A stretch of DNA of 32,889 nucleotides from Alphaproteobacteria bacterium (GTDB taxonomy: Bacteria; Pseudomonadota; Alphaproteobacteria; MPNO01; VGEU01). The position numbers and the translations under genes are program-made. Positions 15,224 through 32,180 of this stretch are shown here, piece after piece (the first letter of the stretch is position 1; each line of letters starts with the position of its first letter). The notes below the pieces were generated by a model. The model was given only the letters and a program-made list of their open reading frames with translations, ran no database searches and was not told where the DNA came from. Where the stretch lies: assembly GCA_016869145.1 (NCBI GenBank), contig VGEU01000027.1, forward strand, positions 1 through 32,889. Reading direction: 5' to 3'.

Positions 15224-15613
15224 ATGACGTACACGCTTGGCATGAAGGGGGTCTTCGAGATCACGGTCGCGACCGAGCACACCGCGCACGCGCAGGGCAA
15301 TCCGGGCGTCCACGTCCTGTCGACGCCGTCACTCACCCTGTTCTGCGAGATGGCGGCCCATGACGCGATCTACCGCCAGTATCCCGACGCTGTCTCGACG
15401 GTCGGCATCCACAACGACTTCTGGCACATGGCGGCGACCGCGGTCGGCGAGCGGGTGCGGGTCCACGCCGAGCTCGTCGAGATCGACCGCAAGCGCCTCG
15501 TCTTCCGCATCGAGGGTTTCGACGAGCGCGCGCAGATCGTGCGCGGCACGCACGAGCGCTTCGTGGTCGACCTGCCGAGCTTCCTCGCGAGGCTCCCGAA
15601 GCCGAAGCTCTAG
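15224..15613 (+). CDS. FlK-type hotdog acyl-CoA thioesterase
   Basis: This 129-residue single-hotdog-domain protein would hydrolyse a short acyl-CoA. It matches the fluoroacetyl-CoA thioesterase (FlK) pattern: Thr34 in VLSTP, Glu42 in CEMAA and His68 in NDFWHMAAT. Their spacing (8 and 26 residues) is the same as that of FlK Thr42, Glu50 and His76. The start is ATG at 15224, 31 bp after the metallo-hydrolase. Its stop shares the tetranucleotide CTAG with the stop of the convergent ligase. Most family members are uncharacterised and need not act on fluoroacetyl-CoA; clearing a dead-end or toxic acyl-CoA from the adjacent pathways is a reasonable guess. Confidence 0.88.
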   Translation: MTYTLGMKGVFEITVATEHTAHAQGNPGVHVLSTPSLTLFCEMAAHDAIYRQYPDAVSTVGIHNDFWHMAATAVGERVRVHAELVEIDRKRLVFRIEGFDERAQIVRGTHERFVVDLPSFLARLPKPKL

Positions 15614-17265
15614 CCGGTACCCGCCTGCCGCCGCGCGCGTTCCTCCTCGCGGAGCGTCCGCCGGTCGATCTTCATCAGCGTCGTGCGCGGCAGCGTCGCG
15701 ACGAACGCGATCTCGTCCGGAACCTTGTAGCCGCCGATCGCCCGCACCTTCGCCTTGAGCGCATCGGCGAGCGCGGCCGAGGCGGCCTGACCCGGCCGCA
15801 GGACGACGAAGGCCTTGGGCCGGGTGAGCCCGTCTTGGTCCTCGTACGAGACCACGGCCGCCTCGAGCACCGCCGCGTGCTCGGTGATCGCCGCTTCGAC
15901 CTCGATCGGCGAGACCCAGAGGCCCTTCACCTTGAAGACGTCGTCCGAGCGGCCGGCGAACCAGAAGAAGCCGTCCGCGTCGAAGGAAAGCGTATCGCCG
16001 GTCCGGGTCCACGCGCCGACGAAGGTCGCCTTGGTGCGGTCGTACTTGCGCCAGTAGAAGAAGCAGGACGTGACGCTCTTGATCCACGCCTCGCCCTCGC
16101 GGCCGGGCTCGGCGATGTCGTTGCCGTCCGGATCGACGAGGCGCACCTCGCAGCCGAAGACGGGCTTGCCGAGGCTGCCGCGCCTGAACTCGCGCGGACG
16201 GTTGGCGATCCACTCGTATGTGATCTCGGACGAGCCGATCGAATCGAGCAGCTCGACGCCGAAGATGGCGTGGAACTTCTCGAAGATCTCGGGCGGCATC
16301 TTCTCGGACGCGGTGATGACGAGCCCGCACGCGGAGAAATCGGGCTTCCGGCCCGTCTCCTCGACATGCAGCATCATGGTCTTGACGATCGTCGGCACGG
16401 TGACGAGCTTGGTCGCGCGATGCCGCTCGACGAGGCCGATCACGTTCTCGGGCGTCGGCGGCAGACGGCTGATCAATCCGGTCGCGCCCCAGAACAAGGG
16501 GATCAGCACGCCCGGCCACAGCCCGTGCGTGAAATACTTCTTGGAGGTCGCGTGCACGATATCGCTCGCGACATATTCCCAGAACGCGCCGTGGCGCGCC
16601 GGTACGATATAGAAGTCGTGCGCGAGATGGGTGATGCCCTTCGCGGTGCCGGTCGTGCCGCCGGAATAGAACATGTAGGCGACGTCGTTGCGATGGCGCT
16701 GAAGCGGCGTGAAGTGCGCGGGCTTTCCGGCGACGAGTGCCTCGGCCGTGACCACGCGGACGCGGGCCGGCAGCGCCGGCGCGCCGGCGCCGCGGACGAC
16801 GACGCGCTCGAGCGTCGCCGGCAGGTCGTCGGCGATCTCGGCGAGCTTCGCGACCTGCTCGGCATCGATGTAGAGCCCGCGCGCGGCGGTATCCTCGAGG
16901 AAGTAGCGCAGCATCGGCGCCTTGTACTGGTCGGAGATCACGACCGGGACGATCCCGGTCCGGATCGCGCCGAGCCAGACGGCGGCGAACTCGATGCAGT
17001 CGGTGCCGAACAGGAGGAGCCGGTTCTCCGGCGCGAGGCCGAGGTCGACGAGCCCCCGCGCCGCGCGGCAGACCGCCTCGTGGAGCGCGCGATAGGAATG
17101 GCGCGCGTCATCGACGATCAGCGCGGTCTTGTCGGCCACGGGCGTCCCGAGATGCTTGTCGAGAAGGACGCTGGTGGGGCTGAACGTCTCCGGCACCTCC
17201 GGGTCGCGCCAGGCGCGCCAGTCGGGGCCGTAGATCCGCTCGCCGATCGGGGCCGCTCCGCTCAC
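15610..17265 (-). CDS. Benzoate-CoA-ligase-like acyl-CoA ligase
   Basis: This 551-residue ANL enzyme activates a carboxylic acid as its CoA thioester. The P-loop is FYSGGTTGTAKG (199-210). A THGLWPG segment, SIGSSEITYEW, TGDTLSFDADGFFWFAGRSDD and FKVKGLWVSPIEVE follow, resembling benzoate-CoA ligases (BadA/BclA type). The catalytic lysine lies in LPRTTLMKIDRR, with Met replacing the usual Gly. The start is GTG at 17265, preceded by AAGGAG 6 bases away. It is the last gene of the oxygenase operon, 58 bp after the crotonase. A second, different ligase lies upstream in the same operon, so two acids, or an acid and a later intermediate, may be activated. Confidence 0.92.
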   Translation of the reverse strand: MSGAAPIGERIYGPDWRAWRDPEVPETFSPTSVLLDKHLGTPVADKTALIVDDARHSYRALHEAVCRAARGLVDLGLAPENRLLLFGTDCIEFAAVWLGAIRTGIVPVVISDQYKAPMLRYFLEDTAARGLYIDAEQVAKLAEIADDLPATLERVVVRGAGAPALPARVRVVTAEALVAGKPAHFTPLQRHRNDVAYMFYSGGTTGTAKGITHLAHDFYIVPARHGAFWEYVASDIVHATSKKYFTHGLWPGVLIPLFWGATGLISRLPPTPENVIGLVERHRATKLVTVPTIVKTMMLHVEETGRKPDFSACGLVITASEKMPPEIFEKFHAIFGVELLDSIGSSEITYEWIANRPREFRRGSLGKPVFGCEVRLVDPDGNDIAEPGREGEAWIKSVTSCFFYWRKYDRTKATFVGAWTRTGDTLSFDADGFFWFAGRSDDVFKVKGLWVSPIEVEAAITEHAAVLEAAVVSYEDQDGLTRPKAFVVLRPGQAASAALADALKAKVRAIGGYKVPDEIAFVATLPRTTLMKIDRRTLREEERARRQAGTG

Positions 17266-17323: not shown

Positions 17324-18118
17324 CTAGCGGCCGTTGAAGCGCGGGCTCCGCTTCTCGCGGAGCGCGTTCACGCCTTCCTGGTGGTCGGCGGTGAGGTTCG
17401 ACTTGAACTCGAGGGCGAGCGAGAGATCGAGGTTCTCGGTGACGATCCGCCGGAGCGGCGCATTGATCGCGCGCTTGGTCCACTGGATGGCACGGATCGC
17501 GCCCGCCGCGAGCTGATCGGCGAAGGCATCGACCCGCGCATCGAGCTCGGCCGCCGGGACGCAGTGGTTGATGAGCCCGATCGCCGCCGCCTTCTCCGCC
17601 GTGAGGAGCTCGCCCGTATAGAGGAACTCGCGGGCGCGAGCATAGCCGACGAGAAACGGCCACAGCGCCGAGCCGCCGTCGCCCGCGGTGAAGCCGACCT
17701 TGACGTGCGGATCGCCGATCACGGCGCGGTCGGCCGCGAACACGACGTCGCAGGCGAGCGCGATCGTCGCGCCGAGCCCGGCGGCGGCGCCGTTGAGCTT
17801 GGCGATCACCGGCTGGCGGCAATCGAGGATGGAAAGGACGATGTTCTTTGCCTCGTCGGCGGTCTTCTCCCAGGACCACGGGTCGTCGATCATGCCCTGG
17901 AGCCAGTCGACATCGCCGCCGGCCGAGAAGGCGCGCCCGGCGCCGGTGAGGATCACGACCTCCGCCTCGCCGTCGCGGCTCACCTCGCCGAAGAGCCGCG
18001 ACAGCTCCTCGTGCATCGCGCCGTCGATCGCGTTGAAACGGTCGGGGCGGTTCAACGTGAGCGTCAGGACGCGCCCGCGGCGCGCGGCGAGGATGGTGCG
18101 GTAGAGGCCGTAATCCAT
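17324..18118 (-). CDS. Atypical enoyl-CoA hydratase/isomerase (crotonase) family protein
   Basis: The 264-residue protein has the crotonase fold signature, with the oxyanion-hole segments AFSAGGD (64-70) and NGAAAGLGATIALACD (109-124). Aligned by eye with rat mitochondrial hydratase, the catalytic Glu144 position is Thr118 and the Glu164 position (QPE) is His138 (DPH). Both hydratase acids are therefore missing, and simple water addition is unlikely. A different crotonase reaction such as isomerisation, ring hydrolysis or dehalogenation is more plausible. The ATG at 18118 begins 4 bp after the nitroreductase stop, so it is in the same operon as the Paa-like oxygenase. This subfamily, with a GDPHVKVG...GDGG segment, is common in catabolic clusters but poorly characterised. 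Confidence 0.9.
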   Translation of the reverse strand: MDYGLYRTILAARRGRVLTLTLNRPDRFNAIDGAMHEELSRLFGEVSRDGEAEVVILTGAGRAFSAGGDVDWLQGMIDDPWSWEKTADEAKNIVLSILDCRQPVIAKLNGAAAGLGATIALACDVVFAADRAVIGDPHVKVGFTAGDGGSALWPFLVGYARAREFLYTGELLTAEKAAAIGLINHCVPAAELDARVDAFADQLAAGAIRAIQWTKRAINAPLRRIVTENLDLSLALEFKSNLTADHQEGVNALREKRSPRFNGR

Positions 18119-18122
18119 CGGA

Positions 18123-18899
18123 TCAATCGAGCCAGGTGGTGAAGTCGTCGACCGCGAGACGGTCGGGCTGGAAGGCGTTGACCGGCGCGTCGGGATCGGC
18201 CCAGCCGAGCGACATGCCGCCGATCAGCTTGAAATCGGGGCCGACCCCGAACAGCCGATGCGCGACATGCGGATAGGCGCCGAGCGCGCCCTGCGCGATC
18301 GTGGCGAGCCCGAAGCCGCGCGCGGCGAGCGCGAGCGAATGAATGAACATGCCGTAGTCCATCCACGAGCCGTGCTCGAGGTCAGAGGCGATCCAGAACA
18401 GCATCGCGGCGGGTGCGTCGAAGAAGGCATAGTTGCGCGCGAACGCCGCCGATCGCGCGGCCGTGTCCTCGCACGCGATCCCCATCGCGCCGTAGAGGCC
18501 GAACCCGCAGGCGCGCCGACGCGCGAGGAAGGGCTCGCGCCAGACCGGCGCATAATAGTGGTACTCCATCTCGCGCGGCTCCTTGTTGCGCATCGCCGCG
18601 AACAGCGCCTCGCTGAGCCGCGCCTGGCTCGCGCCGGTCAGCACGTGGATCTTCCACGGCTGGATGTTGGAGCCCGACGGTGCCCAGCGCGCGACCTCGA
18701 GGAGCCGGCGAAGGAGCGGCGCCGGCACCGGATCGGGCAGGAACGCGCGCACCGAGCGCCGCGACAGGATCGCCTCCTCGACATGACAGTCGCGGCGTTC
18801 GACGCCGGGATCGGTCAGGTCCCCGAGCCGTTTCTTGGCCGCTATGTCGGCGGGCAACGGCCCGCGCCTTGTTCCGGTCCTGTCCACCCGCGCCCTCAC
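18123..18899 (-). CDS. Nitroreductase-family FMN flavoprotein
   Basis: This 258-residue protein has the nitroreductase fold: RRSVRAF (47-53), the FMN-phosphate-binding motif, then ARWAPSGSNIQPW and the C-terminal segment LIGGMSLGWADPDAPVN. It is expected to bind FMN and use NAD(P)H to reduce a nitro, quinone, enone or iodinated substrate. The start is GTG at 18899, sharing GTGA with the stop of the upstream ligase. No better in-frame start precedes the RRSVR motif, which leaves an N-terminal extension of about 45 residues. Within this operon it may reduce a pathway intermediate. Feeding electrons to the oxygenase is conceivable because no PaaE reductase is nearby, but it lacks a 2Fe-2S domain. 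Confidence 0.9.
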   Translation of the reverse strand: MRARVDRTGTRRGPLPADIAAKKRLGDLTDPGVERRDCHVEEAILSRRSVRAFLPDPVPAPLLRRLLEVARWAPSGSNIQPWKIHVLTGASQARLSEALFAAMRNKEPREMEYHYYAPVWREPFLARRRACGFGLYGAMGIACEDTAARSAAFARNYAFFDAPAAMLFWIASDLEHGSWMDYGMFIHSLALAARGFGLATIAQGALGAYPHVAHRLFGVGPDFKLIGGMSLGWADPDAPVNAFQPDRLAVDDFTTWLD

Positions 18900-20503
18900 G
18901 ATCCCCGCAATGCCGCGCCGTCGACGCGACGCGGCAGCTCCATTCGCACGATCTCGCGCTTCAGCACCTTGCCGAACGGGCTCCGCGGCAGGACGTCGAG
19001 GAAGGCGATTTCCTTCGGCACCTTGTAGCCCGCGAGCCGGCCGCGGCAGAGGGCGAGAACCTCGCGCGCGAGCGCGAGATCGTCGGCCGCATTGGGCTGC
19101 TTGACCAGGACCGCGACCACGCGCTCACCCCAGCGGTCGTCATGCCGGCCGACGACGGCGCATTCCTTGACGCCGGGATGATCGAGGAGGACGGTCTCGA
19201 CCTCGACCGAGGCGACGTTTTCGCCGCCCGTGATGATGATGTCCTTGGCGCGGTCGACGATCGTGACGCGCCCGTCGTCGTCCATGAAGCCGACATCGCC
19301 CGTCCACATCCACGCGAGCCCTTCCGGATCGGCCGGATCGACGCGGAAGGTGTGCGCGGTGTTGGCGGCATCGTTGTTGTAATAGAGGCTCATCGCCATC
19401 GTGCGCCCGAGGATGTGGCCGACCGTGTTGCGCGGCACCGGGCGGCCCGCCTCGTCGACGATCCGGATGCGCGAGACGAGTGCCGGCTCGCCGACCGAGG
19501 CCGGCATGGACAGGAACTCGCCCGTCCCTTGCATCGACATCGAGAAGGTCTCGGTCATGCCGTAGCCGGCGATGATGCGGGCCGCGGGGAAGATCGACTG
19601 GATGATGCGGCGCTGCGGCTCGGGCGTCGGTGCCGAGGCGATGCACATCGCGCGGAGCTCGGGGATCGGTCGGCCGTCCCAGGCGGCACGCAGCGGTTCG
19701 ATCATCGCCGGCACGATCAAGAGATAGCCGACGCGCTCGGTGCGGACCGCCTCGAGCACGAAGCGCGGGTTGAAGGTGGCGGTCGGCGGCATGACCACGC
19801 GCCCGCCCTGCCACAAGACCGGGAGCACGCCCCAACCGAGGCCCGCCGCGTGATAGGTCGGCGCGAGGCAGAGCGTCGTGTCGCCGCGCGCGACCTCCAT
19901 GTTGACGATGACGCCGAGCGTGTCGAGGAGGCAGCCGCCATGGCTCCACACCGCGGCCTTCGGGCCGCCCGTCGTTCCGCCCGTCATCGCCATCATATAG
20001 GCGTCCTCCCACGCCGCGCGCGGCGGCAGCGGATCGGGGCGCTCGGCGTCGAGGAGCGTCTCATAGTCGAGATCGCCCGGCGCCGCCTTGCCGCCGCGGA
20101 TGATGCGGGTGCGCAGCGCGGCGCCGTCGGCGAGGCCGGCGAGCGCCTCGTTCGCGATGAAGACCGCGACCTCCTGGCGGTTCAGATAGTCGCGCGCCTC
20201 GGCGGGGGCGAGCCGGTTGTTGAGCGGCACGGCGACGGCACCGGCCATGCAGCAGGCGAACAACGCCTCGAGCGAGGCGTGCTCGTTGAGGAAGGCGTAG
20301 GCGACGGGCTCGCCCTTGGCGACGCCGCGGGCGATCAGCGCGCGCGCGAGCCGGCTCGCGCGTGCCTCGAGCCCGCGATAGGTGAGCGTGGTGCCCGACA
20401 GCCGGTCGTCGATCGCGATGCGGTTGGGGTGGAGCTCCGCCGAGCGGCGGAGGATGAAGTCGATGCCGGCCTGCCGCCGTTCGGGATTGGGCACGAGCAC
20501 CAT
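18896..20503 (-). CDS. Acyl-CoA ligase (AMP-forming), fatty-acid-ligase type
   Basis: The 535-residue ANL enzyme forms an acyl-CoA from acid, ATP and CoA. The P-loop is MTGGTTGGPKAAVWSH (173-188), with Gly in place of the usual first Ser and Ala after Lys. GYGMTETF, WTGDVGFMDDDGR, RAKDIIITGGENVASVEVE and the C-terminal LPRSPFGKVLKR with its catalytic lysine are intact. The ATG at 20503 has GAGAGG about 8 bases upstream and lies 45 bp after the zinc-ribbon gene. It is not of the PaaK phenylacetate-ligase type, so the oxygenase substrate is probably not simple phenylacetate. Its partner ligase at 15610-17265 is only distantly similar. Confidence 0.93.
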   Translation of the reverse strand: MVLVPNPERRQAGIDFILRRSAELHPNRIAIDDRLSGTTLTYRGLEARASRLARALIARGVAKGEPVAYAFLNEHASLEALFACCMAGAVAVPLNNRLAPAEARDYLNRQEVAVFIANEALAGLADGAALRTRIIRGGKAAPGDLDYETLLDAERPDPLPPRAAWEDAYMMAMTGGTTGGPKAAVWSHGGCLLDTLGVIVNMEVARGDTTLCLAPTYHAAGLGWGVLPVLWQGGRVVMPPTATFNPRFVLEAVRTERVGYLLIVPAMIEPLRAAWDGRPIPELRAMCIASAPTPEPQRRIIQSIFPAARIIAGYGMTETFSMSMQGTGEFLSMPASVGEPALVSRIRIVDEAGRPVPRNTVGHILGRTMAMSLYYNNDAANTAHTFRVDPADPEGLAWMWTGDVGFMDDDGRVTIVDRAKDIIITGGENVASVEVETVLLDHPGVKECAVVGRHDDRWGERVVAVLVKQPNAADDLALAREVLALCRGRLAGYKVPKEIAFLDVLPRSPFGKVLKREIVRMELPRRVDGAALRGS

Positions 20504-20548: not shown

Positions 20549-20770
20549 TCAGTCGCCGCTATCGTGCGCGGTCGGCGGCAGGGCGCCCCGCCATTTAACC
20601 CAATTGAAGCAGGTCTTGCACCCGTTGCAGCGGAACATGACCTCGGACACCGAGCCGCCGAACAGCGACTGCACGGTGAGGTCCTCCGACCCGCAATACG
20701 GGCAGGCGACGCCGGCGAAGTCCTTGTCGCCGGCGAAGATGCGTGAATGCGGGGCGGCGCGTGTCCTCAA
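20549..20770 (-). CDS. Stand-alone PaaD-type zinc-ribbon protein (C-terminal half of a split PaaD)
   Basis: This 73-residue protein has a four-cysteine zinc ribbon, Cys23-x2-Cys26 and Cys48-x2-Cys51, plus Cys54. Its framing, CPYCGSEDLTVQSLFGGS then RCNGCKTCFNWVKW, matches the C-terminal domain of PaaD, the factor needed to make active phenylacetyl-CoA epoxidase. In ordinary PaaD this ribbon is fused behind a DUF59 domain; here the DUF59 part is a separate gene at 21829-22149. The start is TTG at 20770, sharing TTGA with the stop of the paaC-like gene, with AGGA 9 bases upstream. An earlier in-frame start (20854) would lie deep in the neighbour. The two halves sum to 179 residues, close to a normal PaaD. 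Confidence 0.82.
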   Translation of the reverse strand: MRTRAAPHSRIFAGDKDFAGVACPYCGSEDLTVQSLFGGSVSEVMFRCNGCKTCFNWVKWRGALPPTAHDSGD

Positions 20771-21549
20771 AAGGCGAGTTCCTGATCCTTGAAGCGCACG
20801 ACCTCCCACAGCCCGGCCGGGATCGGCCCGTGGCGGCGCGCATCGGGCCGCCATGACGTCTCGAAGCTCGCCGGCCTTGCGGTCGGCAGCGGCGCGCCGA
20901 CCAGCGACGCGGCCTTGCCGATCTCCCTCAGGAAGGCCTCGCGGATCTTGCCGATCGGCATGTCGCGTTGGCCGGCCGTGTGCAGCGGATCGGCCGCCTC
21001 CGCCGGGCCGAACCAGCGGAGCGCGAACGGCAGCCGCTTCTCGACCATGCGGAGGAACGTCGCGCGCTCGGCCGCGCCTTCGCCGATGATGCGCATCCAG
21101 CCGTCGGTGTACTTGAGATGAAAATAGCTCTCCTGCCCGACCTTCTTGGCGAGGCCGGCGAGCTGGCGGTCGGGATTGTGCAGAAAGCCCGACAAGAGCA
21201 TCCAGCTCGCGAGCTCGCCGAGCCAGACGGCGGCGAGGAAGTCCTCCCAGCCCACCGGCGCCTCGTCTAGAAGCTCCATCGAGCGGATCGCGCCGGCGTC
21301 GCGGCCGCGCTCGAGCGCGCCGAAGTCATGGCCGAAATTGGTGAGGTACCGGTAGATGGCGCGCGTCTGGCCGAAGGAGGCCGTGCACATCCCAAGGAGC
21401 GTCGCGAAATCGGGCAGCGAGCGCCCGTTCATGACGCACTCGGTGTACCAGTTGCCGAGCACCAGCTTGGTGTCGGCGACGGCGAGGAGGTCGTCCTGCA
21501 GCAGGGAGGCGACGGCCGGGGCGAGATCGGATGTCGTTGCGGTGGTCAT
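20767..21549 (-). CDS. paaC: PaaC-like structural subunit of a phenylacetyl-CoA-epoxidase-type oxygenase
   Basis: The 260-residue protein is a ferritin-like all-helical subunit. LGNWYTECVMNGRSLPDF, FGQTRAIYRYL and GQESYFHLKYTDGWM correspond to the PaaC family. It lacks the paired ExxH ligands seen in the PaaA-like protein, as does known PaaC, so it is probably the non-catalytic scaffold partner. Family PaaC is about 250 residues. The ATG at 21549 starts 1 bp after the paaB-like stop and its own stop overlaps the zinc-ribbon start, so it is tightly coupled. The symbol is given at family level; the substrate may not be phenylacetyl-CoA. Confidence 0.88.
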   Translation of the reverse strand: MTTATTSDLAPAVASLLQDDLLAVADTKLVLGNWYTECVMNGRSLPDFATLLGMCTASFGQTRAIYRYLTNFGHDFGALERGRDAGAIRSMELLDEAPVGWEDFLAAVWLGELASWMLLSGFLHNPDRQLAGLAKKVGQESYFHLKYTDGWMRIIGEGAAERATFLRMVEKRLPFALRWFGPAEAADPLHTAGQRDMPIGKIREAFLREIGKAASLVGAPLPTARPASFETSWRPDARRHGPIPAGLWEVVRFKDQELAF

Positions 21550-21550
21550 G

Positions 21551-21814
21551 TCAGTTCATCTTGATCTTGGCGGACTTGCCGTGCTCGGTCACGGTGACGA
21601 TGGCGTCGGTCGGCACCACGCACATCTCCTTCCAGGCGTGCTGGTCGTAGACGAACCAGGCGCGCACCTGGGCGAGATCGTCGTTGGGCGCCTCGACGCT
21701 CCCGACATGGGTGAGGGGATCGGCGGAGCTCTTGCGCGCGAACACCTCGTAGTAGCGGGGCGTCGTGCCGCCGCGCTCGCGCTTGCGGTCGAATCTCTTC
21801 TCGTTCTCGGTCAT
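21551..21814 (-). CDS. paaB: PaaB-like subunit
   Basis: This 87-residue protein matches PaaB: YYEVFARK at 21-28, THVGSVEAPND (35-45) and the C-terminal MCVVPTDAIV (64-73). In the known enzyme PaaB bridges two PaaAC units and is required for activity. The first 20 residues are charged and probably flexible. The ATG at 21814 lies 14 bp after the DUF59 stop with AAAGG about 11 bases upstream. Gene order here is A-D(N)-B-C-D(C) rather than the usual A-B-C-D-E. Symbol at family level. Confidence 0.88.
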   Translation of the reverse strand: MTENEKRFDRKRERGGTTPRYYEVFARKSSADPLTHVGSVEAPNDDLAQVRAWFVYDQHAWKEMCVVPTDAIVTVTEHGKSAKIKMN

Positions 21815-21828
21815 CGATGGTGGACCTT

Positions 21829-22149
21829 TCAGACCTGGATTCCGTTCGCGCGCATGAGGTCGCGCACGTCGGGATCGATCATGTCGCGCGACCAAGTGAG
21901 GTGCCAGCCCTCGCGCACCACCACGTCGGCGACGCCGGGCAGCGCCATGACCGCATCGCGCACCTTCGCGTGCAGCATGGCGACGCCCGGGCAGCCGAGA
22001 CAGGGGATGCAGAGCTGCACCTCGACCACACCGTCGTCCGCGATCTCGATCTCGCGCAGCATGCCCATGCGCCGGAGGCTCACGGGCACATGCGGATCGT
22101 TGACCGCCTCGAGGGCGGTCATGATCGCGTCCCTGGTGGGCGGCGCCAT
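21829..22149 (-). CDS. paaD: DUF59 (MIP18-type) protein, N-terminal half of a split PaaD
   Basis: The 106-residue protein is a stand-alone DUF59 domain. It has NDPHVPVSLRRMGML (17-31), the counterpart of the DPEIPVxS motif, and a PaaD-like tail, WSRDMIDPDVRDLMRANGI, corresponding to the region that precedes the zinc ribbon in fused PaaD. It ends there; the ribbon is encoded separately at 20549-20770. The usual single cysteine before CP is replaced by a triplet, Cys47, Cys50 and Cys53 (CIPCLGCPG), which could bind metal or an Fe-S cluster. PaaD-type proteins help mature the diiron oxygenase. The ATG at 22149 begins 2 bp after the paaA-like stop. Confidence 0.85.
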   Translation of the reverse strand: MAPPTRDAIMTALEAVNDPHVPVSLRRMGMLREIEIADDGVVEVQLCIPCLGCPGVAMLHAKVRDAVMALPGVADVVVREGWHLTWSRDMIDPDVRDLMRANGIQV

Positions 22150-22151
22150 GG

Positions 22152-23099
22152 CTACCAGAGTTCCTTGCCCCACACCTCGAGCTGGAGGCGCCGGATCGCC
22201 GGCACCTTGAAGACGCTGCCGCGCTTCCAGATCGCGAACTGCTCCTCCCAGGTGATGCGGCGGTCGAAGTGCCAAACCCGCTTCTCCTCGTCGAGATAGA
22301 CGGGCGGCTCGTAGTCGAGGCGGAACTTGCCGGTCTCCTCGTCGAAGCGCGCCGGGATGCGGATGCCGAGCTCCTCGCAGAACGGAACGACCTGCGTCAG
22401 CCACTTCTGGCGCATCTCATCGTTGGAGGCGCCGCGAATCTTGTAGGCGAGCTGGTCGGTGCGCTTCTTCATGCTGTCGGGCACGCCGAACCACGCCGCG
22501 GCGAGCGGGAAGTAGAAGTCGAACGCCTCCTGCACGCGCTGGCGGCTCGCCGGCGACTGGTTCCAGAAGAACCGCGTCCAGCGCTCGCCGTGGCCGACGT
22601 GGAACGTCTCCTCGAAGTTCACCTTGCGCAGCGAGCGCGCATAGGGCCCGAACGAGCAATTGTCCTCGAGATCGGTCGTGGTGATGTAGCCGGCGCGGTC
22701 GCCGATGCACATCGACACCACGGTCTCGATGTAGTCGCGGTGCGGGAACTCGAGGAGCTGGAAGGTGCGGAACTCCGCCGCCTCGCGCTCGAACAGGAAC
22801 TGGTGGGTGTCGTAGCCGAAATCCTCGAGCAGCCGGTACATCACCTGGGCGTGGCCGAGCTCGTCCTGGCACGCCGAGGCGACCGCGATCTTCGCCTCGA
22901 GATTGGGCGAGTTCTTGATCGCCGGCGAATAGTCGGGGAGCGTCATCACCTCAAGGTCGGCGGCGATGTGCATGGTGTTGACGAGCACGTCGCGATAGCG
23001 CGGCGTCATCTCGGTCTCGTCCTCGAGCTTGAAGCCCGCCTTGATCCGCTCCTGCAGCGCGAGCTCGCGCGGGTCATCCTGCTTCAGCCTGGTCGCCAT
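22152..23099 (-). CDS. paaA: PaaA-like catalytic diiron subunit of a CoA-thioester oxygenase
   Basis: The 315-residue ferritin-like protein has the diiron ligands expected of PaaA. Glu50 is a candidate first ligand, with Glu80-x2-His83 in QDELGHAQ and Glu164-x2-His167 in EETFHVGHG. FGPYARSL (150-157) is a PaaA hallmark. PaaA inserts an oxygen atom from O2 into the ring of phenylacetyl-CoA to form an epoxide; this divergent relative probably acts on another CoA thioester. GAGGAA lies 6 bases before the ATG at 23099, the best ribosome site in the operon. It is the first oxygenase gene, 52 bp after the TetR gene. No PaaE-type reductase is in the window, so the electron donor must be encoded elsewhere or be unusual. 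Confidence 0.9.
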   Translation of the reverse strand: MATRLKQDDPRELALQERIKAGFKLEDETEMTPRYRDVLVNTMHIAADLEVMTLPDYSPAIKNSPNLEAKIAVASACQDELGHAQVMYRLLEDFGYDTHQFLFEREAAEFRTFQLLEFPHRDYIETVVSMCIGDRAGYITTTDLEDNCSFGPYARSLRKVNFEETFHVGHGERWTRFFWNQSPASRQRVQEAFDFYFPLAAAWFGVPDSMKKRTDQLAYKIRGASNDEMRQKWLTQVVPFCEELGIRIPARFDEETGKFRLDYEPPVYLDEEKRVWHFDRRITWEEQFAIWKRGSVFKVPAIRRLQLEVWGKELW

Positions 23100-23151: not shown

Positions 23152-23949
23152 TCAACGCGCGGCAACGCCGTCGAGCACGATGAGCCGCATCGCGCGCACG
23201 AGGTCGGGACCGTCGAGCTCGCGCCGGCGGCGATACCACTCGACGAAGCAGCCCTGGTTCACCGCCATGACGAGCGCCACCATCTCGCGCGTACCGAGGT
23301 CGCGGCGGAAGCTGCCCTGGCGCTTGCCCTTGTCGATGATCTCGCCGAGCATCGCGTACATGCGGCCCATCAGTCCGGCGAGCCGTGTCTCGACCTTGTC
23401 GCCGGAGCCCTGAAACTCGGTCGACATCAGGATCGCGAGCAGCATCAGTTCGGCCCGGTCGGCGCCGGTCATCGACTGCGCATGCATGAAGGCGACGAGC
23501 TGGTCGCGGCCACGCCCGCCGGCGGCCGCGACGGCCTGCGCGGTCGGCTCGACCGAGAGCGTCTCGACCCGGTCGAGGAGGTCCATCAGGACCTTGGCCT
23601 TGCTCTTGAAATAGAAGTAGACGGCGCCCTTGGTGAGGCCCGCCTTGGCGGCGATCTCGTCGATCGTTGTCGCGTGGTAGCCGCGCGTGACGAAAAGGGC
23701 GAGTGCCGCGGCGAGGAGCGCCTCGATCGACTGGGCGCGCTGCTCTGGCTTGGTCTGAGCTGGCTTGGTGTGTGCCGCCTTGGTCTGAGCTGGTTTGGTC
23801 AGAGCTGCATGGACTTGAGCCGCCTGGGCCTGAGCCGCCTGGGCCTGAGCCCCGTTGCCGCGGCCGGCGCGCATCGCGGTCGCGCGCGCACCGGACCGGG
23901 CGCGCCGCCGTCCGCTGGTGCCGCTCTCGTGCAGGCCGGCTGTCGCCAC
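23152..23949 (-). CDS. TetR-family regulator with a repetitive N-terminal arm
   Basis: The 265-residue product has a TetR DNA-binding domain at about 86-121 (FVTRGYHATTIDEIAAKAGLTKGAVYFYF, quoted in part: TTIDEIAAKAGLTKG) and a C-terminal ligand domain. It is about 65 residues longer than most TetR proteins because the N-terminus carries seven 5-residue repeats (AQTKP/AQAQA type, residues 34-68). I chose GTG at 23949 because AGGGGAG lies 5 bases upstream and the promoter candidate would place the RNA start near 23975. An earlier GTG at 23970 would leave almost no leader. Lying just upstream of the oxygenase genes and in the same direction, it probably represses this operon and itself, released by an acyl-CoA. 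Confidence 0.85.
   Translation of the reverse strand: MATAGLHESGTSGRRRARSGARATAMRAGRGNGAQAQAAQAQAAQVHAALTKPAQTKAAHTKPAQTKPEQRAQSIEALLAAALALFVTRGYHATTIDEIAAKAGLTKGAVYFYFKSKAKVLMDLLDRVETLSVEPTAQAVAAAGGRGRDQLVAFMHAQSMTGADRAELMLLAILMSTEFQGSGDKVETRLAGLMGRMYAMLGEIIDKGKRQGSFRRDLGTREMVALVMAVNQGCFVEWYRRRRELDGPDLVRAMRLIVLDGVAAR
23746..23850. repeat. Seven tandem 15-bp repeats inside the TetR gene
   Basis: Seven head-to-tail 15-bp units, consensus near yGCCTTGGTCTGAGC on the plus strand, fill 105 bp without interruption. The two rightmost units (23821-23835 and 23836-23850) are identical; the others differ at a few positions. Because the unit is a multiple of three, each encodes five residues (AQAQA, AQVHA, ALTKP, AQTKA, AHTKP or AQTKP) and the frame is kept whatever the copy number. 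Confidence 0.9.
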
Positions 23950-23968
23950 CCGGGCTCCCCTCGCATTC

Positions 23969-23990
23969 ACATACCGGGTGGATAGTATGT
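23969..23990. promoter_or_regulatory. Candidate TetR operator ACATAC-N10-GTATGT
   Basis: A perfect 6-bp inverted repeat with a 10-base centre spans 22 bp and overlaps the candidate -10 box and start region of the TetR gene. The size and position suit autorepression by the adjacent TetR protein. Binding is not shown. Confidence 0.45.
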
Positions 23991-24045: not shown

Positions 24046-24076
24046 CCCGTCCTACCGACGTCCCGTCCTACCGACG
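24046..24076. repeat. 15-bp direct repeat spanning the TRAP gene stop codon
   Basis: CCCGTCCTACCGACG occurs at 24046-24060 and 24062-24076. The second copy contains the last codons and the TAG stop (24068-24070) of the TRAP binding-protein gene, so the first copy is a duplicate of the gene end lying beyond the stop. Confidence 0.8.
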
Positions 24077-25093
24077 CGCTTTCGCCGCGGTCGCGATCAT
24101 GAGGTCATAGAACTGCTTGACCGCCGGCGTCTCGGCCGCCACCTCGGCGCCGATATTGGCCATGCGGCGCTCGAACTCCTTCTGCTCGTTCGGCGACAGC
24201 CTGTAGATCTCGCCGCCGCCCTGCACCCAGGTGTCGTACATCCCGGCCTTGAGCTTCTTGCCGAACTCCTGGACCCCAGGCTCGATCTCCTTGCCGATGT
24301 CGAGCATCATCTTCTGGAGGTCGGCCGGGACCCTGTCGAACCACGCCTTGCTCGCCATCACGAGCGTCGGGATGAAGCCCTCATGCGTGACGATGAGATG
24401 CTTCGCGGCGGCCTGGTACTTGAACGGCACCCAGACCGAGATCGCCGAGCGCGCGCCGTCGACGGTGCCCTGCGACAGGGCAGTCATCACCTCGCTGAGG
24501 TCCATGGCGGCCGGGCTGGCGCCGAGCTCCTCCATGATCCGCCGCTCGATCTTGGACGCGAGCACGCGGATCTTCTTGCCCTTGAAATCGGCGAGCGTCT
24601 TGATCGGCGTCCGCGACACGTACGAGATCTGCGACGTCATGATGATGCCGATGCCCTTGACGCCCTTGGCCTCGCCGAGCAACAGCAGCCGATCGCGCAT
24701 ATCGGGGTGCGTGACGGTCCGGAACGCGTGGTCGATATCGTCGAACCAGCCGGGCGAATCGAACACCTGGAAGCGCTGGTCGAGGCCGATCATGAAGCCC
24801 GGCGGTCCGGCCCAGACCTCCTGCGTGCCGAGCTGGATGCCCTCGATCTGGCGCGGGATCGAGCCGAGCTGGTTGGCCGGGAAGATCTCGGCCTTGAAGC
24901 GGCCGGCGCTCCGGGTCTCCATGAGATCCTTGAAGCGCTTCAACCACTCGTGCTGGTCCTCGTTGATCGTCGCGGTGCCCAACTTGGCCGTGATCGTCTG
25001 CGCCACGGCCGGCGACAGGCCGGCTCCCAACGCGACCATGAGCGCGCCGGCGACAAGTCGCGCGGGCGCGAATGCGCGGAACATCGATCCCAT
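24068..25093 (-). CDS. TRAP transporter substrate-binding protein (DctP family), copy 1
   Basis: The 341-residue periplasmic protein has a signal peptide ending near AVAQ (residue 32). The DctP-family body includes FPANQLGSIPRQIEG and, in the hinge and ligand region, KIRVLASKIERR...SEVMTALSQGTVDGA. TRAP binding proteins capture carboxylates through a conserved arginine and hand them to a DctQM membrane permease. No dctQ or dctM gene is in the window. The start is ATG at 25093, with GGGAGGGAG upstream; a longer open frame to 25297 would bury the signal peptide. It is clearly paralogous to the next gene upstream over the whole length. It may serve the adjacent acid-degradation operon. Confidence 0.92.
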   Translation of the reverse strand: MGSMFRAFAPARLVAGALMVALGAGLSPAVAQTITAKLGTATINEDQHEWLKRFKDLMETRSAGRFKAEIFPANQLGSIPRQIEGIQLGTQEVWAGPPGFMIGLDQRFQVFDSPGWFDDIDHAFRTVTHPDMRDRLLLLGEAKGVKGIGIIMTSQISYVSRTPIKTLADFKGKKIRVLASKIERRIMEELGASPAAMDLSEVMTALSQGTVDGARSAISVWVPFKYQAAAKHLIVTHEGFIPTLVMASKAWFDRVPADLQKMMLDIGKEIEPGVQEFGKKLKAGMYDTWVQGGGEIYRLSPNEQKEFERRMANIGAEVAAETPAVKQFYDLMIATAAKARR

Positions 25094-25222
25094 TCGCAGC
25101 TCCCTCCCTTGATGCGCGCCGGACGGTCTCCCTAGGACGGCGGCCCGTTGTGACCGGCCATCATCGCGCATCGTGGCACAGCGCGACAAGACACAATCGA
25201 TCGCGACCGCCGCAACGCGAAA

Positions 25223-25245
25223 GGGCGCCGGATGTCCCGGCGCCC
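25223..25245 (-). terminator. Rho-independent terminator after the second TRAP gene
   Basis: A perfect 9-bp stem GGGCGCCGG/CCGGCGCCC with a 5-base loop (25232-25236) lies 24 bases past the stop of the upstream TRAP gene. On the minus-strand RNA it is followed by UUU. The stem is strong and the U-run short, as is usual in GC-rich genomes. Confidence 0.65.
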
Positions 25246-25268
25246 CCTCGAGAACCCCGCCGACACGC

Positions 25269-26297
25269 CTAGTTGCGGACGCGCCCGGCGATCGCAACCA
25301 TCTGGTCGTAGATCTCCTTCACCTGCGGATTCTCCGCCGCGACCTCGGCGCCGATCCGGTTGACGCGGCGGATGTACTCGGCCTGGTCGGCCGCCGAGAG
25401 CTTGATCAGCTCGCCGCCGTTCTCGACCCAGGTCTTGTACATGTCCTCCTTGATCTTCTTGCCGAAGTCGTGGATTTCGGGCTCGAGCCCCTTGCCTTCG
25501 GCGAGCACGAGGCTCTGGAGGTCGGCCGGCAGCTTGTCGAACCACGCCTTGTTCATCATCAGGACCGCGGGCAGCATCGCCTCGTGGGTCTGGACGAGAT
25601 GTTTCGCGACCGACCAGTACTTGAACGGCACGAAGACGCTGACGACCGTGCGCGTGCCGTCGATGGCGCCCTGGCTCAGCGACGGCAGCACCTCGCTGAG
25701 ATCCATCGACACTGGGCTCATCTGGAACTCCTCGGTGATGCGCCGCTCGATGCGTGCCGCGAGGACGCGCACCTTCATGCCGCGGAAATCGGCGAGCGTA
25801 CGGACCGGGCGACGAAACAGATAGGCCTGCTGCGAGGTGATGAAGAGCGCGACGCCCTTGAGACCCTTGGCCTCCCCGAGGCCGAGGAACCGCTCGCGGA
25901 TCTCGGGGTGGGTCATCGTGCGGTAGGCATGGTCCTGGCTATCGAACACGCCGGGGAAGTCGAACACCTGGAAACGCTGGTCGAGGCCCACCAGGAAGCC
26001 GGGCGGCCCGATCCAGGCCTCCTGCGTCCCGAGTTGCGTGCCTTCGACCTGGCGCGGGATGGACCCGAGCTGGTTGGCGGGAAAGAGGTCGATCTTGAAG
26101 CGGCCATTGGACTTCGCTTCGAGCCGGTCCTTGAGGCGCTTCAGGAGCTCGTGCTGATCCTCGTTGACGGTCGCCGTGCCGAACTTGGCCGCGACCGTCT
26201 GCCCGGACGCAACACCCGCGGTGCCCATCGACAGGGCCGCCGCCAACGGCACCCACGCGAAGCGCGCGAGCCCAGTCCACCCTGATCCCAGCATCAT
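25269..26297 (-). CDS. TRAP transporter substrate-binding protein (DctP family), copy 2
   Basis: The 342-residue protein is a full-length paralogue of the neighbouring TRAP binding protein. Both share the EDQHE and FPANQLGSIPRQ segments and a matching C-terminal third. The signal peptide probably ends near ASGQ (residue 33). The sequences diverge in the ligand-facing region (for example ITEEFQMSPVSMD against IMEELGASPAAMD), so the ligands may differ. Two ATGs in tandem (26297 and 26294) follow GGGGA; I give the first. A strong terminator follows it, so the two paralogues are probably separate transcripts. As with copy 1, no membrane permease genes are nearby. Confidence 0.92.
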   Translation of the reverse strand: MMLGSGWTGLARFAWVPLAAALSMGTAGVASGQTVAAKFGTATVNEDQHELLKRLKDRLEAKSNGRFKIDLFPANQLGSIPRQVEGTQLGTQEAWIGPPGFLVGLDQRFQVFDFPGVFDSQDHAYRTMTHPEIRERFLGLGEAKGLKGVALFITSQQAYLFRRPVRTLADFRGMKVRVLAARIERRITEEFQMSPVSMDLSEVLPSLSQGAIDGTRTVVSVFVPFKYWSVAKHLVQTHEAMLPAVLMMNKAWFDKLPADLQSLVLAEGKGLEPEIHDFGKKIKEDMYKTWVENGGELIKLSAADQAEYIRRVNRIGAEVAAENPQVKEIYDQMVAIAGRVRN

Positions 26298-26426
26298 CGC
26301 TATTCCCCATCGATTGTACTTGTTCGATCGCCTCGTTCCGAAGCGATCGCTCTTGATTATTAGCCCGCGACGGTGCCGCGGTATAGCCGGACGGCGAGAG
26401 GCCATCGGCCAATCCGTCGCATTTGG

Positions 26427-29522: not shown

Positions 29523-29582
29523 CGAGGGTGCCGCGCCTCCTGCCTTGAGAGCGCGATCGGTGCGCCCTAGGTTGTGGATCGG

Positions 29583-32180
29583 ATGGACACGCTCCAGACG
29601 CTCCTGGCCGGGCTCCGCGCCCATGGCGACCGCATCGCGCTCCACGCCTTCACGGCGGCGGGCGAGGAGCGGCTGAGCTATGCGGTGCTCTGCGACCAGG
29701 CCGAGCGCGTGGCGGCGGGCCTCGCCGGCGGGCTCGGGCTCAAGGCGGGCGACCGCGCCGCGATCGCCGCCGCCAACCGGCCGTCCTGGGTGGTGGTGCG
29801 GTTCGCGATGATCGCGGCCGGGGTGACCGCGGTGCCGCTCGACGACATGAGCGGGCCCGAGGACATCGCGCGCGCGCTCGACAACAGCGGCGCGACGGTC
29901 CTGTTCACGACGCGCGAGATGCTCTCGCGCCTCGCTCCGTTGCGGGCGCGTGCCGGGCTCCGGCTCATCGTCCTCGACGACGAGGATGCGGACGCGGTGC
30001 CGTCGTGGCGGAGCCTCGTCGCGGAGACGACGCGGCCGCAGCCGGTCTCGCGGCCCGAGGATATCGCGGCGCTCATCTACACCTCGGGCACCACCGGGGT
30101 CGCCAAGGGCGTGCCGCTCACCCACGCCAACATCCTCGCCAATGTGCGCTCGATGGCATCGGGCGGTTTCGCCGGAACGGGCGACCGTGTGCTCCTGCCG
30201 CTGCCGCTTCATCACGCCTTTCCGTTCATCGTCGGCCTCGTGCTGCCGTTCGTCCTCGGCGCGACGGTGTTGATGCCGGCGAGCGTCGCCGGCCCCGACA
30301 TCGCGCGCGCGCTCAAGGACGGGCGTGCGACCGTGATGGTCGGCGTGCCGCGGCTCTACGAGGCTTTCGCCGCCGCGATCCGCGCGCGCCTCGCCACGAG
30401 CGGCGGGGGCGGCCGTCTGTTCGCGCGGCTCCTCGCGCTCTCGATCGCGCTCCGTCGTCGGTTCGGCTGGCGCGTCGGGCACGCCCTCCTCGCGCCGGTA
30501 CGCAACCGCGTCGCGCCCGATCTTCGCCTGATGGGATGCGGCGGCGCGAAGCTCGACGAGGCGGTCGCCTGGACGCTCGAAGGCCTCGGCTTCGAGGTGC
30601 TGACCGGCTACGGCCTGGTCGAGACCGCCTCGGTGAGCACCTACAACCGCCGCGGCCACGGGCGCATCGGTACCGAGGGCCTGCCGGGCGACGGCGTGGA
30701 GCTCCGCATCGCCGAGCCCGACGAGACCGGCGTCGGCGAGATCCAGATCCGCGGCCCGCATGTCTTCGCGGGCTATCACGACGATGCGCGCACCACGGCC
30801 GAGGTGTTCACTGCCGACGGTTGGTTCCGTTCCGGCGATCTCGGCCGGCTCGATGCCGGCTCCGTCGTCGTCGTCGGGCGCCGCAAGGAGGTGATCGTGC
30901 TTCCCGGCGGCAAGAACATCGGTCCCGAGGAAGTCGAGACCGCGCTGACCGCAAGCCCCTATGTCCAGGAGGCGGGCGTCCTCGAGAAGGATGGCGCGCT
31001 CGTCGCGCTGATCGTGCCCAACATGGCAGCGCTCCAGGCCTCCGAGACCGCGCGAATTGACCAGCTCCTTCGCGTCGCGGTGACCGAGAGCGTCGCCGGG
31101 CTCGCGCCCTATAAGCGCGTCTCGGGCTTCCGCATCCTGCGCGATCCGCTGCCCAAGACGCGGCTCGGCAAGATCCGGCGCTTCGCGCTCCCCGCGCTCT
31201 ACGCGGCGGCGGAAACGGCCGGGCGCACCGACCGCGCGCCGACCGAGGACGAGGCCCGACGGCTCGCGAGCGCGGAGGGCCGGCGCGTGATGGCGATCCT
31301 CGCGCGCCGTCATCCGGCCGAACCCATCACGCTCGACACCAGCCCGCAGCTCGACCTCGGCATCGACTCGCTCGCCTGGATCGAGCTCGCCGCCGAGATC
31401 GAGTCCGAGACCACGGTGGCGCTCGACGAGACGGTGCTGTCGCGCATCGTGACGGTGGGCGATCTCCTCCGCGAGGTGAGCGAGCGCGCGGCGACGACGG
31501 CGCCGGCGCCCGAGGCCCTGCCGCCATTCGCTCCGCTTCCGGCGACCGGGGCCGCGCGCGCGGCGGGGTTTCTGCTCCACGCCGGCGTGCGCCTGGCGAT
31601 GCGGCTCCTGTTCCGGCTCCGCGCCGAGGGCGCGCCACCGGTCCACAGCGGCCCCCTCCTCCTCGTCGCCAATCACGCGAGCGATCTCGATCCGTTCGCG
31701 ATCAGCGCGGCCATGCCGTGGCATTCGGCGCGGCGCTGCTGGTGGGGTGCGGAGGTGACGCGGATGTTCACGACCCGGCCACGCCGCTTCCTCGCCCGCG
31801 CGGCCCAGGTGTTCCCGGTCGACGACCGGCGGCCGACGGCGAGCCTCGCCCACGCCGAGGCGGTCCTGAAGAGCGGCCAGACGCTGGTCTGGTTCCCCGA
31901 ATCGTGGCGTTCGCCCGACGGCAGCCTGCAGGAATTCCTGCGCGGCGTCGGCGTGCTCGCGATTGCGTGCCGGCCGACCGTCGTCCCGGTCTGGATCGAG
32001 GGTGCGTTCGAGGCGATGCCGCGTCAGCGGCACTGGCCGCGTCTCATGCCGATCCGGGTGCGGTTCGGCGCGCCGGTGTCGGCGGATGCCTATGTCGCGT
32101 CGACGACGGAAGGCGATGCGGCGCGGGCGACCGCGGACGCGCTCCGAAGTCGGCTCGACGCCTTCTCGCACGCCGCCTGA
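29583..32180 (+). CDS. Fused acyl-AMP ligase, acyl carrier protein and PlsC-type acyltransferase
   Basis: This 865-residue protein has three parts. Residues 1-540 form an ANL acyl-AMP ligase (P-loop YTSGTTGVAKG 166-176, GYGLVET 342-348, SGDLG 417-421, catalytic Lys530). Residues about 560-635 form an acyl carrier protein with phosphopantetheine site Ser596 in DLGIDSL. Residues about 660-865 form a lysophospholipid-acyltransferase domain with NHASDLD (His698, Asp703), FPESWRS (771-777) and Pro802. The likely reaction is fatty acid plus ATP to acyl-AMP, loading of the built-in ACP, then transfer to a lysolipid. E. coli Aas joins the same activities in the opposite order and uses free ACP. GTG at 29574 is an alternative start. 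The neighbours suggest membrane lipid repair or synthesis of a special lipid. Confidence 0.92.
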   Translation: MDTLQTLLAGLRAHGDRIALHAFTAAGEERLSYAVLCDQAERVAAGLAGGLGLKAGDRAAIAAANRPSWVVVRFAMIAAGVTAVPLDDMSGPEDIARALDNSGATVLFTTREMLSRLAPLRARAGLRLIVLDDEDADAVPSWRSLVAETTRPQPVSRPEDIAALIYTSGTTGVAKGVPLTHANILANVRSMASGGFAGTGDRVLLPLPLHHAFPFIVGLVLPFVLGATVLMPASVAGPDIARALKDGRATVMVGVPRLYEAFAAAIRARLATSGGGGRLFARLLALSIALRRRFGWRVGHALLAPVRNRVAPDLRLMGCGGAKLDEAVAWTLEGLGFEVLTGYGLVETASVSTYNRRGHGRIGTEGLPGDGVELRIAEPDETGVGEIQIRGPHVFAGYHDDARTTAEVFTADGWFRSGDLGRLDAGSVVVVGRRKEVIVLPGGKNIGPEEVETALTASPYVQEAGVLEKDGALVALIVPNMAALQASETARIDQLLRVAVTESVAGLAPYKRVSGFRILRDPLPKTRLGKIRRFALPALYAAAETAGRTDRAPTEDEARRLASAEGRRVMAILARRHPAEPITLDTSPQLDLGIDSLAWIELAAEIESETTVALDETVLSRIVTVGDLLREVSERAATTAPAPEALPPFAPLPATGAARAAGFLLHAGVRLAMRLLFRLRAEGAPPVHSGPLLLVANHASDLDPFAISAAMPWHSARRCWWGAEVTRMFTTRPRRFLARAAQVFPVDDRRPTASLAHAEAVLKSGQTLVWFPESWRSPDGSLQEFLRGVGVLAIACRPTVVPVWIEGAFEAMPRQRHWPRLMPIRVRFGAPVSADAYVASTTEGDAARATADALRSRLDAFSHAA

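Follow-up and report, generated by a model that had tools for sequence, protein, structure and literature searches.

A predicted PaaABC-type diiron oxygenase subfamily with the gene order A-DUF59-B-C-zinc ribbon

In a 32,889-nucleotide stretch of an alphaproteobacterial genome (hereafter the window), we identified five genes whose products probably form a PaaABC-type diiron monooxygenase of several components. The enzyme falls in a separate subfamily, and its most likely substrate is a CoA thioester different from phenylacetyl-CoA. Judged from its sequences, this subfamily is separate, old and horizontally spread, and has its own gene order, A-DUF59-B-C-ribbon. It is defined by this order, by the clade formed by the A proteins, by one inserted residue in A and by a PCxxCP motif in the DUF59 protein, all of which are present in the window. 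Searches of the open-licence literature for PaaABC-like or DUF59 oxygenases returned no description of this branch. As far as we searched, the paralogous subfamily, its gene order and its residue signature are undescribed.

Results

Five genes of a Paa-like operon

The initial annotation had listed five genes in this order, with 106 and 73 residues for the DUF59 and ribbon proteins, and all five are present as described on the minus strand (20549-23099): A, DUF59 (D), B, C and zinc ribbon (Z), from 5' to 3'. All pass Pfam cut-offs (Table 1). The closest solved relative of A is PaaA (PDB 4iit, E=1.7e-22). Z begins with a TTG codon that overlaps the TGA of C, and its start is uncertain, with 20809 and 20854 as in-frame alternatives. 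For B, TIGR04031 (Htur_1727 "rSAM-partnered candidate RiPP"; 47.5 bits, cut-off 57.2) gives a higher score than every PaaB model, and this RiPP candidate family may be PaaB-like. In the marine relatives and the rhizobial genus described below, A is likewise preceded by the TetR gene. Elsewhere in the window, a tandem pair of TRAP-type solute receptors is encoded just upstream of the TetR gene (24068-26405), and a single 868 aa fusion protein combines an AMP ligase, an acyl carrier and an acyltransferase domain (29574-32180).

Table 1 Features of the module in the window
Feature	Coordinates	Strand	Evidence
TetR-family regulator at the start of the module	23152..23970	-	TetR_N 63 bits
A: PaaA-like catalytic diiron subunit, 315 aa	22152..23099	-	PF05138 (PaaA_PaaC) 179.4 bits, cut-off 28.5; tree; residue table
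D: DUF59 protein, 106 aa, PCLGCP motif; predicted N-terminal half of a split PaaD	21829..22149	-	PF01883 (FeS_assembly_P) 60.6 bits; paad_haloarch 59.5 bits; alignment
B: PaaB-like bridging subunit, 87 aa	21551..21814	-	PF06243 32 bits, cut-off 27
C: PaaC-like structural subunit, 260 aa	20767..21549	-	PF05138 68.6 bits, cut-off 28.5; PDB PaaC 4iit_C E=3.1e-5; clusters in the tree with the clade's other C subunits
Z: zinc ribbon, 73 aa, CPYC...CNGC; predicted C-terminal part of a split PaaD	20549..20770	-	Zn_ribbon_PaaD (PF23451) 49.1 bits, cut-off 27
ACS1: AMP-forming acyl-CoA ligase	18896..20503	-	AMP-binding 221 bits
Nitroreductase-family flavoprotein	18123..18899	-	PF00881 102 bits; PDB 3gr3 E=4e-54
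Enoyl-CoA hydratase/isomerase family protein	17324..18118	-	PF00378 166 bits; alignment with PaaF and PaaG
ACS2: benzoate-CoA-ligase-family protein	15610..17265	-	TIGR02262 389.6 bits, cut-off 375.25

A gene order conserved in distant hosts

A co-occurrence check across genomes returned the same order in distant hosts, at 23/23 sampled loci (the window and 22 others; one contig ends before the ribbon gene). Since 22 other loci carry the same genes in the same order, a chance arrangement or an annotation artefact is ruled out, and its recurrence in distant hosts likewise rules out a local fission in one lineage. Within the taxonomic order of the window, four marine-type alphaproteobacterial genomes have this arrangement (73-75% identity in A). 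It is also found in one further alphaproteobacterium (L033), in 6 of the 147 genomes of a large-genome alphaproteobacterial rhizobial genus, probably Bradyrhizobium, and on plasmids of Agrobacterium, Thermus thermophilus and haloarchaea. It is rare in wide samples, with one other genome among 398 in a sample of the phylum and one among 385 in a sample of the class, and this rarity makes the operon look horizontally spread. At several loci (Agrobacterium, two Haloterrigena records, Haladaptatus and Thermus; L045, L058, L046, L059, L047, L048, L055), the Z gene is intact yet missing from the public annotation. The Thermus loci also carry two small PaaB-like genes in tandem between the DUF59 gene and C (L046 10238-10620; L059 8187-8623).

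Phylogeny and residues of the catalytic subunit

All 23 A proteins fall into a single clade (support 100/98) when PaaA- and PaaC-type proteins are placed in one tree. This clade lies outside canonical PaaA, whose own clade (99/92) takes in the canonical proteins of haloarchaea. The C subunits group in much the same way, with a support of 99/94 without Thermus and 87/50 with it. The same gap appears among plasmid matches to the window A, where clade members share 37-54% identity and canonical PaaA proteins at most 33%. Among the close relatives of A, neither an ordinary paa order nor a fused PaaD was found. One plasmid of Halostella pelagica carries both types, separated by about 18 kb, which makes them paralogues; this coexistence with canonical paa on a single replicon also suggests that the divergent type probably uses a different CoA thioester.

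The six diiron ligands of Escherichia coli PaaA (E42, E72, H75, D126, E155, H158) are kept in the 23 A proteins, with glutamine at one E155 site. In the window, they correspond to E50, E80, H83, D134, E164 and H167; Glu80/His83 and Glu164/His167 had been correctly named from the sequence, and Glu50 and Asp134 complete the set. The lysine bridge of PaaA, formed by Lys68 and Glu49, has a proposed role in electron transfer (PMC4498308). Lys68 is absent from the clade (0/23, against 13/13 canonical proteins), with A, V, I or T in its place, and Glu49 is replaced in all 23 members; the window A has A76 and Y57 at these two positions. With both residues missing, electron delivery or chemistry may differ from that of PaaA. 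Between D126 and E155, 23/23 clade members have one inserted residue, against 0/13 canonical proteins. Phe108, the pocket residue that orients the phenylacetyl group, is conserved in all canonical proteins; the position is mixed in the clade, where the window A and 13 of the 23 members have Leu. The AlphaFold model of A, built from six sequences, has a pLDDT of 52, too low for structural conclusions.

These data bear on whether the operon encodes a true phenylacetyl-CoA epoxidase, that is, a PaaABCD orthologue with rearranged genes. Every subunit is Paa-like and the nearest solved relative is PaaA, as such a reading would predict. However, the equivalog scores are far below their cut-offs (A, TIGR02156, 123.8 vs 280 bits; C, TIGR02158, 32.8 vs 133.35 bits), the clade lies outside canonical PaaA with both types in one replicon, the lysine bridge is gone and most members have lost Phe108, so we regard this reading as decidedly unlikely. 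The candidate of A as an orthologue of canonical PaaA was rejected on tree, scores and residues. The tree, the kept ligands and the order conserved in distant hosts instead support the initial view of a working but divergent branch, whose activity we infer from sequence.

Two genes for the parts of PaaD

The DUF59 domain and the ribbon, known from PaaD as one protein, are not fused here but are encoded by two genes with B and C between them. In an alignment, D ends in GIQV exactly at the point where fused PaaD continues into GIxPP-linker-CPxC. The four cysteines of Z are invariant, and the extra cysteine of fused bacterial PaaD is absent from it. Z groups with PaaD ribbons, exceeds the Zn_ribbon_PaaD cut-off and is a genuine PaaD ribbon. 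The PCxxCP motif is found in 13 of the 14 clade DUF59 proteins sampled and in 0/8 canonical ones. The proposed split PaaD stands in that its two parts are separate genes flanking B and C, but it is not unique to this branch, as haloarchaeal canonical paa has it too. Neither Z nor D reaches the equivalogs for the haloarchaeal split halves (NF041868, NF041869; D 59.5 vs 180 bits, Z 29.1 vs 100). Fused and split PaaD alternate along the tree, and either ancestral state needs two events.

Searches against the Paa families matched A, B, C and Z to their family profiles but gave D almost equal scores with PaaD and SufT-type models (paad_haloarch 59.5 bits, SUF_assoc 58.1), which do not tell the two apart. 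D could then be a general SufT-type protein of iron-sulfur assembly and Z an unrelated ribbon, with no split PaaD at all. The backbone of the DUF59 tree, whose only outgroups are long branches, is unresolved, which leaves room for this reading. However, Z passes the PaaD ribbon cut-off, D keeps the C-terminal tail of PaaD up to the split point, both genes are always in the operon, and the host genome has a separate SufT-like gene on contig C39, together with an ApbC-like protein. We therefore consider a SufT-type D very improbable. As the score alone is not decisive, the predicted assignment of D as a PaaD half draws on the operon, the C-terminal tail and the motif.

Gene neighborhood and host genome

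CoA ligases and enoyl-CoA hydratase-family genes lie near the loci, joined outside the window's own group by aldehyde dehydrogenases and thiolases, and these four families fit a CoA-dependent degradation route. A homologue of ACS1 comes after Z in the rhizobial genus, and L033 has one near Z. The ligase type varies by locus. For ACS2 and for the ligases at the Thermus and haloarchaeal loci, the benzoate-CoA ligase family gives the best score, a hint of an aroyl-CoA substrate, and those of the rhizobial, L033 and Agrobacterium loci fall outside that family. One could read the former as the mark of an alternative benzoyl-CoA epoxidase that does the job of BoxB. However, this is unlikely given the ligases outside the family, and the host genome encodes a true BoxB (L073, C3:83710-85113; 827.7 bits, cut-off 499), which would make plain benzoyl-CoA redundant as a substrate.

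Neither of the catalytic hydratase glutamates is present in the operon's hydratase-family protein. In an alignment with PaaF and PaaG, it has an aspartate that is shifted by one residue from the catalytic aspartate of PaaG. An isomerase or hydrolase role is thus possible.

The window's module contains no oxygenase reductase, and no PaaE-type reductase is encoded nearby. The nitroreductase-family gene, common to the marine relatives only and not found at other loci, is by inference a candidate electron donor or product-modifying reductase. A 2Fe-2S ferredoxin gene and a GNAT-family gene lie as a pair beside the operon at six of the seven haloarchaeal loci sampled (L047, L048, L054-L057). With no reductase in the module and donor candidates that differ by group, electron supply may vary between hosts. 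The host genome lacks a PaaE equivalog (best TIGR02160 match 83.9 vs 420.8 bits, on another contig) and encodes three distant class IA-type reductases elsewhere.

Canonical PaaA is likewise absent from the host genome. Its other PF05138 matches are weak and not canonical; they are two further, very divergent proteins (L021, C33:18609-19283; L022, C29:6945-7622). The one on C33 has a class IA-type reductase about 1 kb away, and its closest relative in the sampled set is a Variovorax plasmid protein. Burkholderia stagnalis has a lone PF05138 protein with a radical SAM gene directly after it (L064 6019-7868).

Discussion

PaaA acts by epoxidising a CoA thioester; PaaD, although required in vivo, is dispensable in vitro (PMC4498308). 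By analogy, the complex described here should oxygenate a CoA thioester. In the pathway we propose, a CoA ligase of the same operon would activate an acid to its CoA thioester, and the oxygenase would then put one oxygen atom into the acyl group, most likely as an epoxide on a ring. A would hold the diiron site, with C as its structural partner and B bridging the heterodimers. Jointly, D and Z would do the work of PaaD, which is most likely to assist in the assembly or repair of the iron site in vivo. The hydratase/isomerase-family protein would rearrange the product of the oxygenase. The substrate is perhaps a substituted aroyl-CoA, other than phenylacetyl-CoA. More tentatively, the operon could represent an ancient and so far unrecognised subfamily of diiron oxygenases that act on CoA thioesters, with a substrate of its own. 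Such enzymes would receive electrons by a route of their own that needs neither the lysine bridge nor PaaE, and their PaaD would consist of two proteins, with PCxxCP as the metal-binding motif of the DUF59 part.

The clade suggests that rhizobia, thermophiles and haloarchaea have in common an undescribed CoA-dependent degradation route, and shows that a paaA annotation in such genomes need not imply the use of phenylacetate. As PaaA-type enzymes without the lysine bridge, the clade members offer a test of the idea that this bridge carries electrons. The split PaaD allows each of its two domains to be deleted, swapped and assayed separately.

Among known systems, BoxB, the benzoyl-CoA epoxidase, is also a diiron enzyme that acts on an aroyl-CoA, but it is a single larger protein (471 positions in TIGR03225) and is present as a separate copy on contig C3 of the same genome. 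The canonical PaaABC(D)E systems of E. coli, Paracoccus and Pseudomonas share the PaaA, PaaB, PaaC, DUF59 and ribbon parts, the six diiron ligands and the CoA-ligase context. They differ in the order A-B-C-D-E, in a fused PaaD, in the presence of Lys68 and Glu49, in having PaaE in the operon and in forming a separate clade. The canonical paa operons of haloarchaea (Haloferax, Haloarcula; NF041867-NF041869) also encode PaaD as two genes, DUF59 and ribbon, so that a split PaaD as such is already known; NCBI names these halves PaaD and PaaE, with the ribbon as PaaE (models NF041868 and NF041869). However, their order is A-B-C-DUF59-ribbon, their A proteins belong to canonical PaaA and keep Lys68, and in Haloarcula paaK lies nearby.
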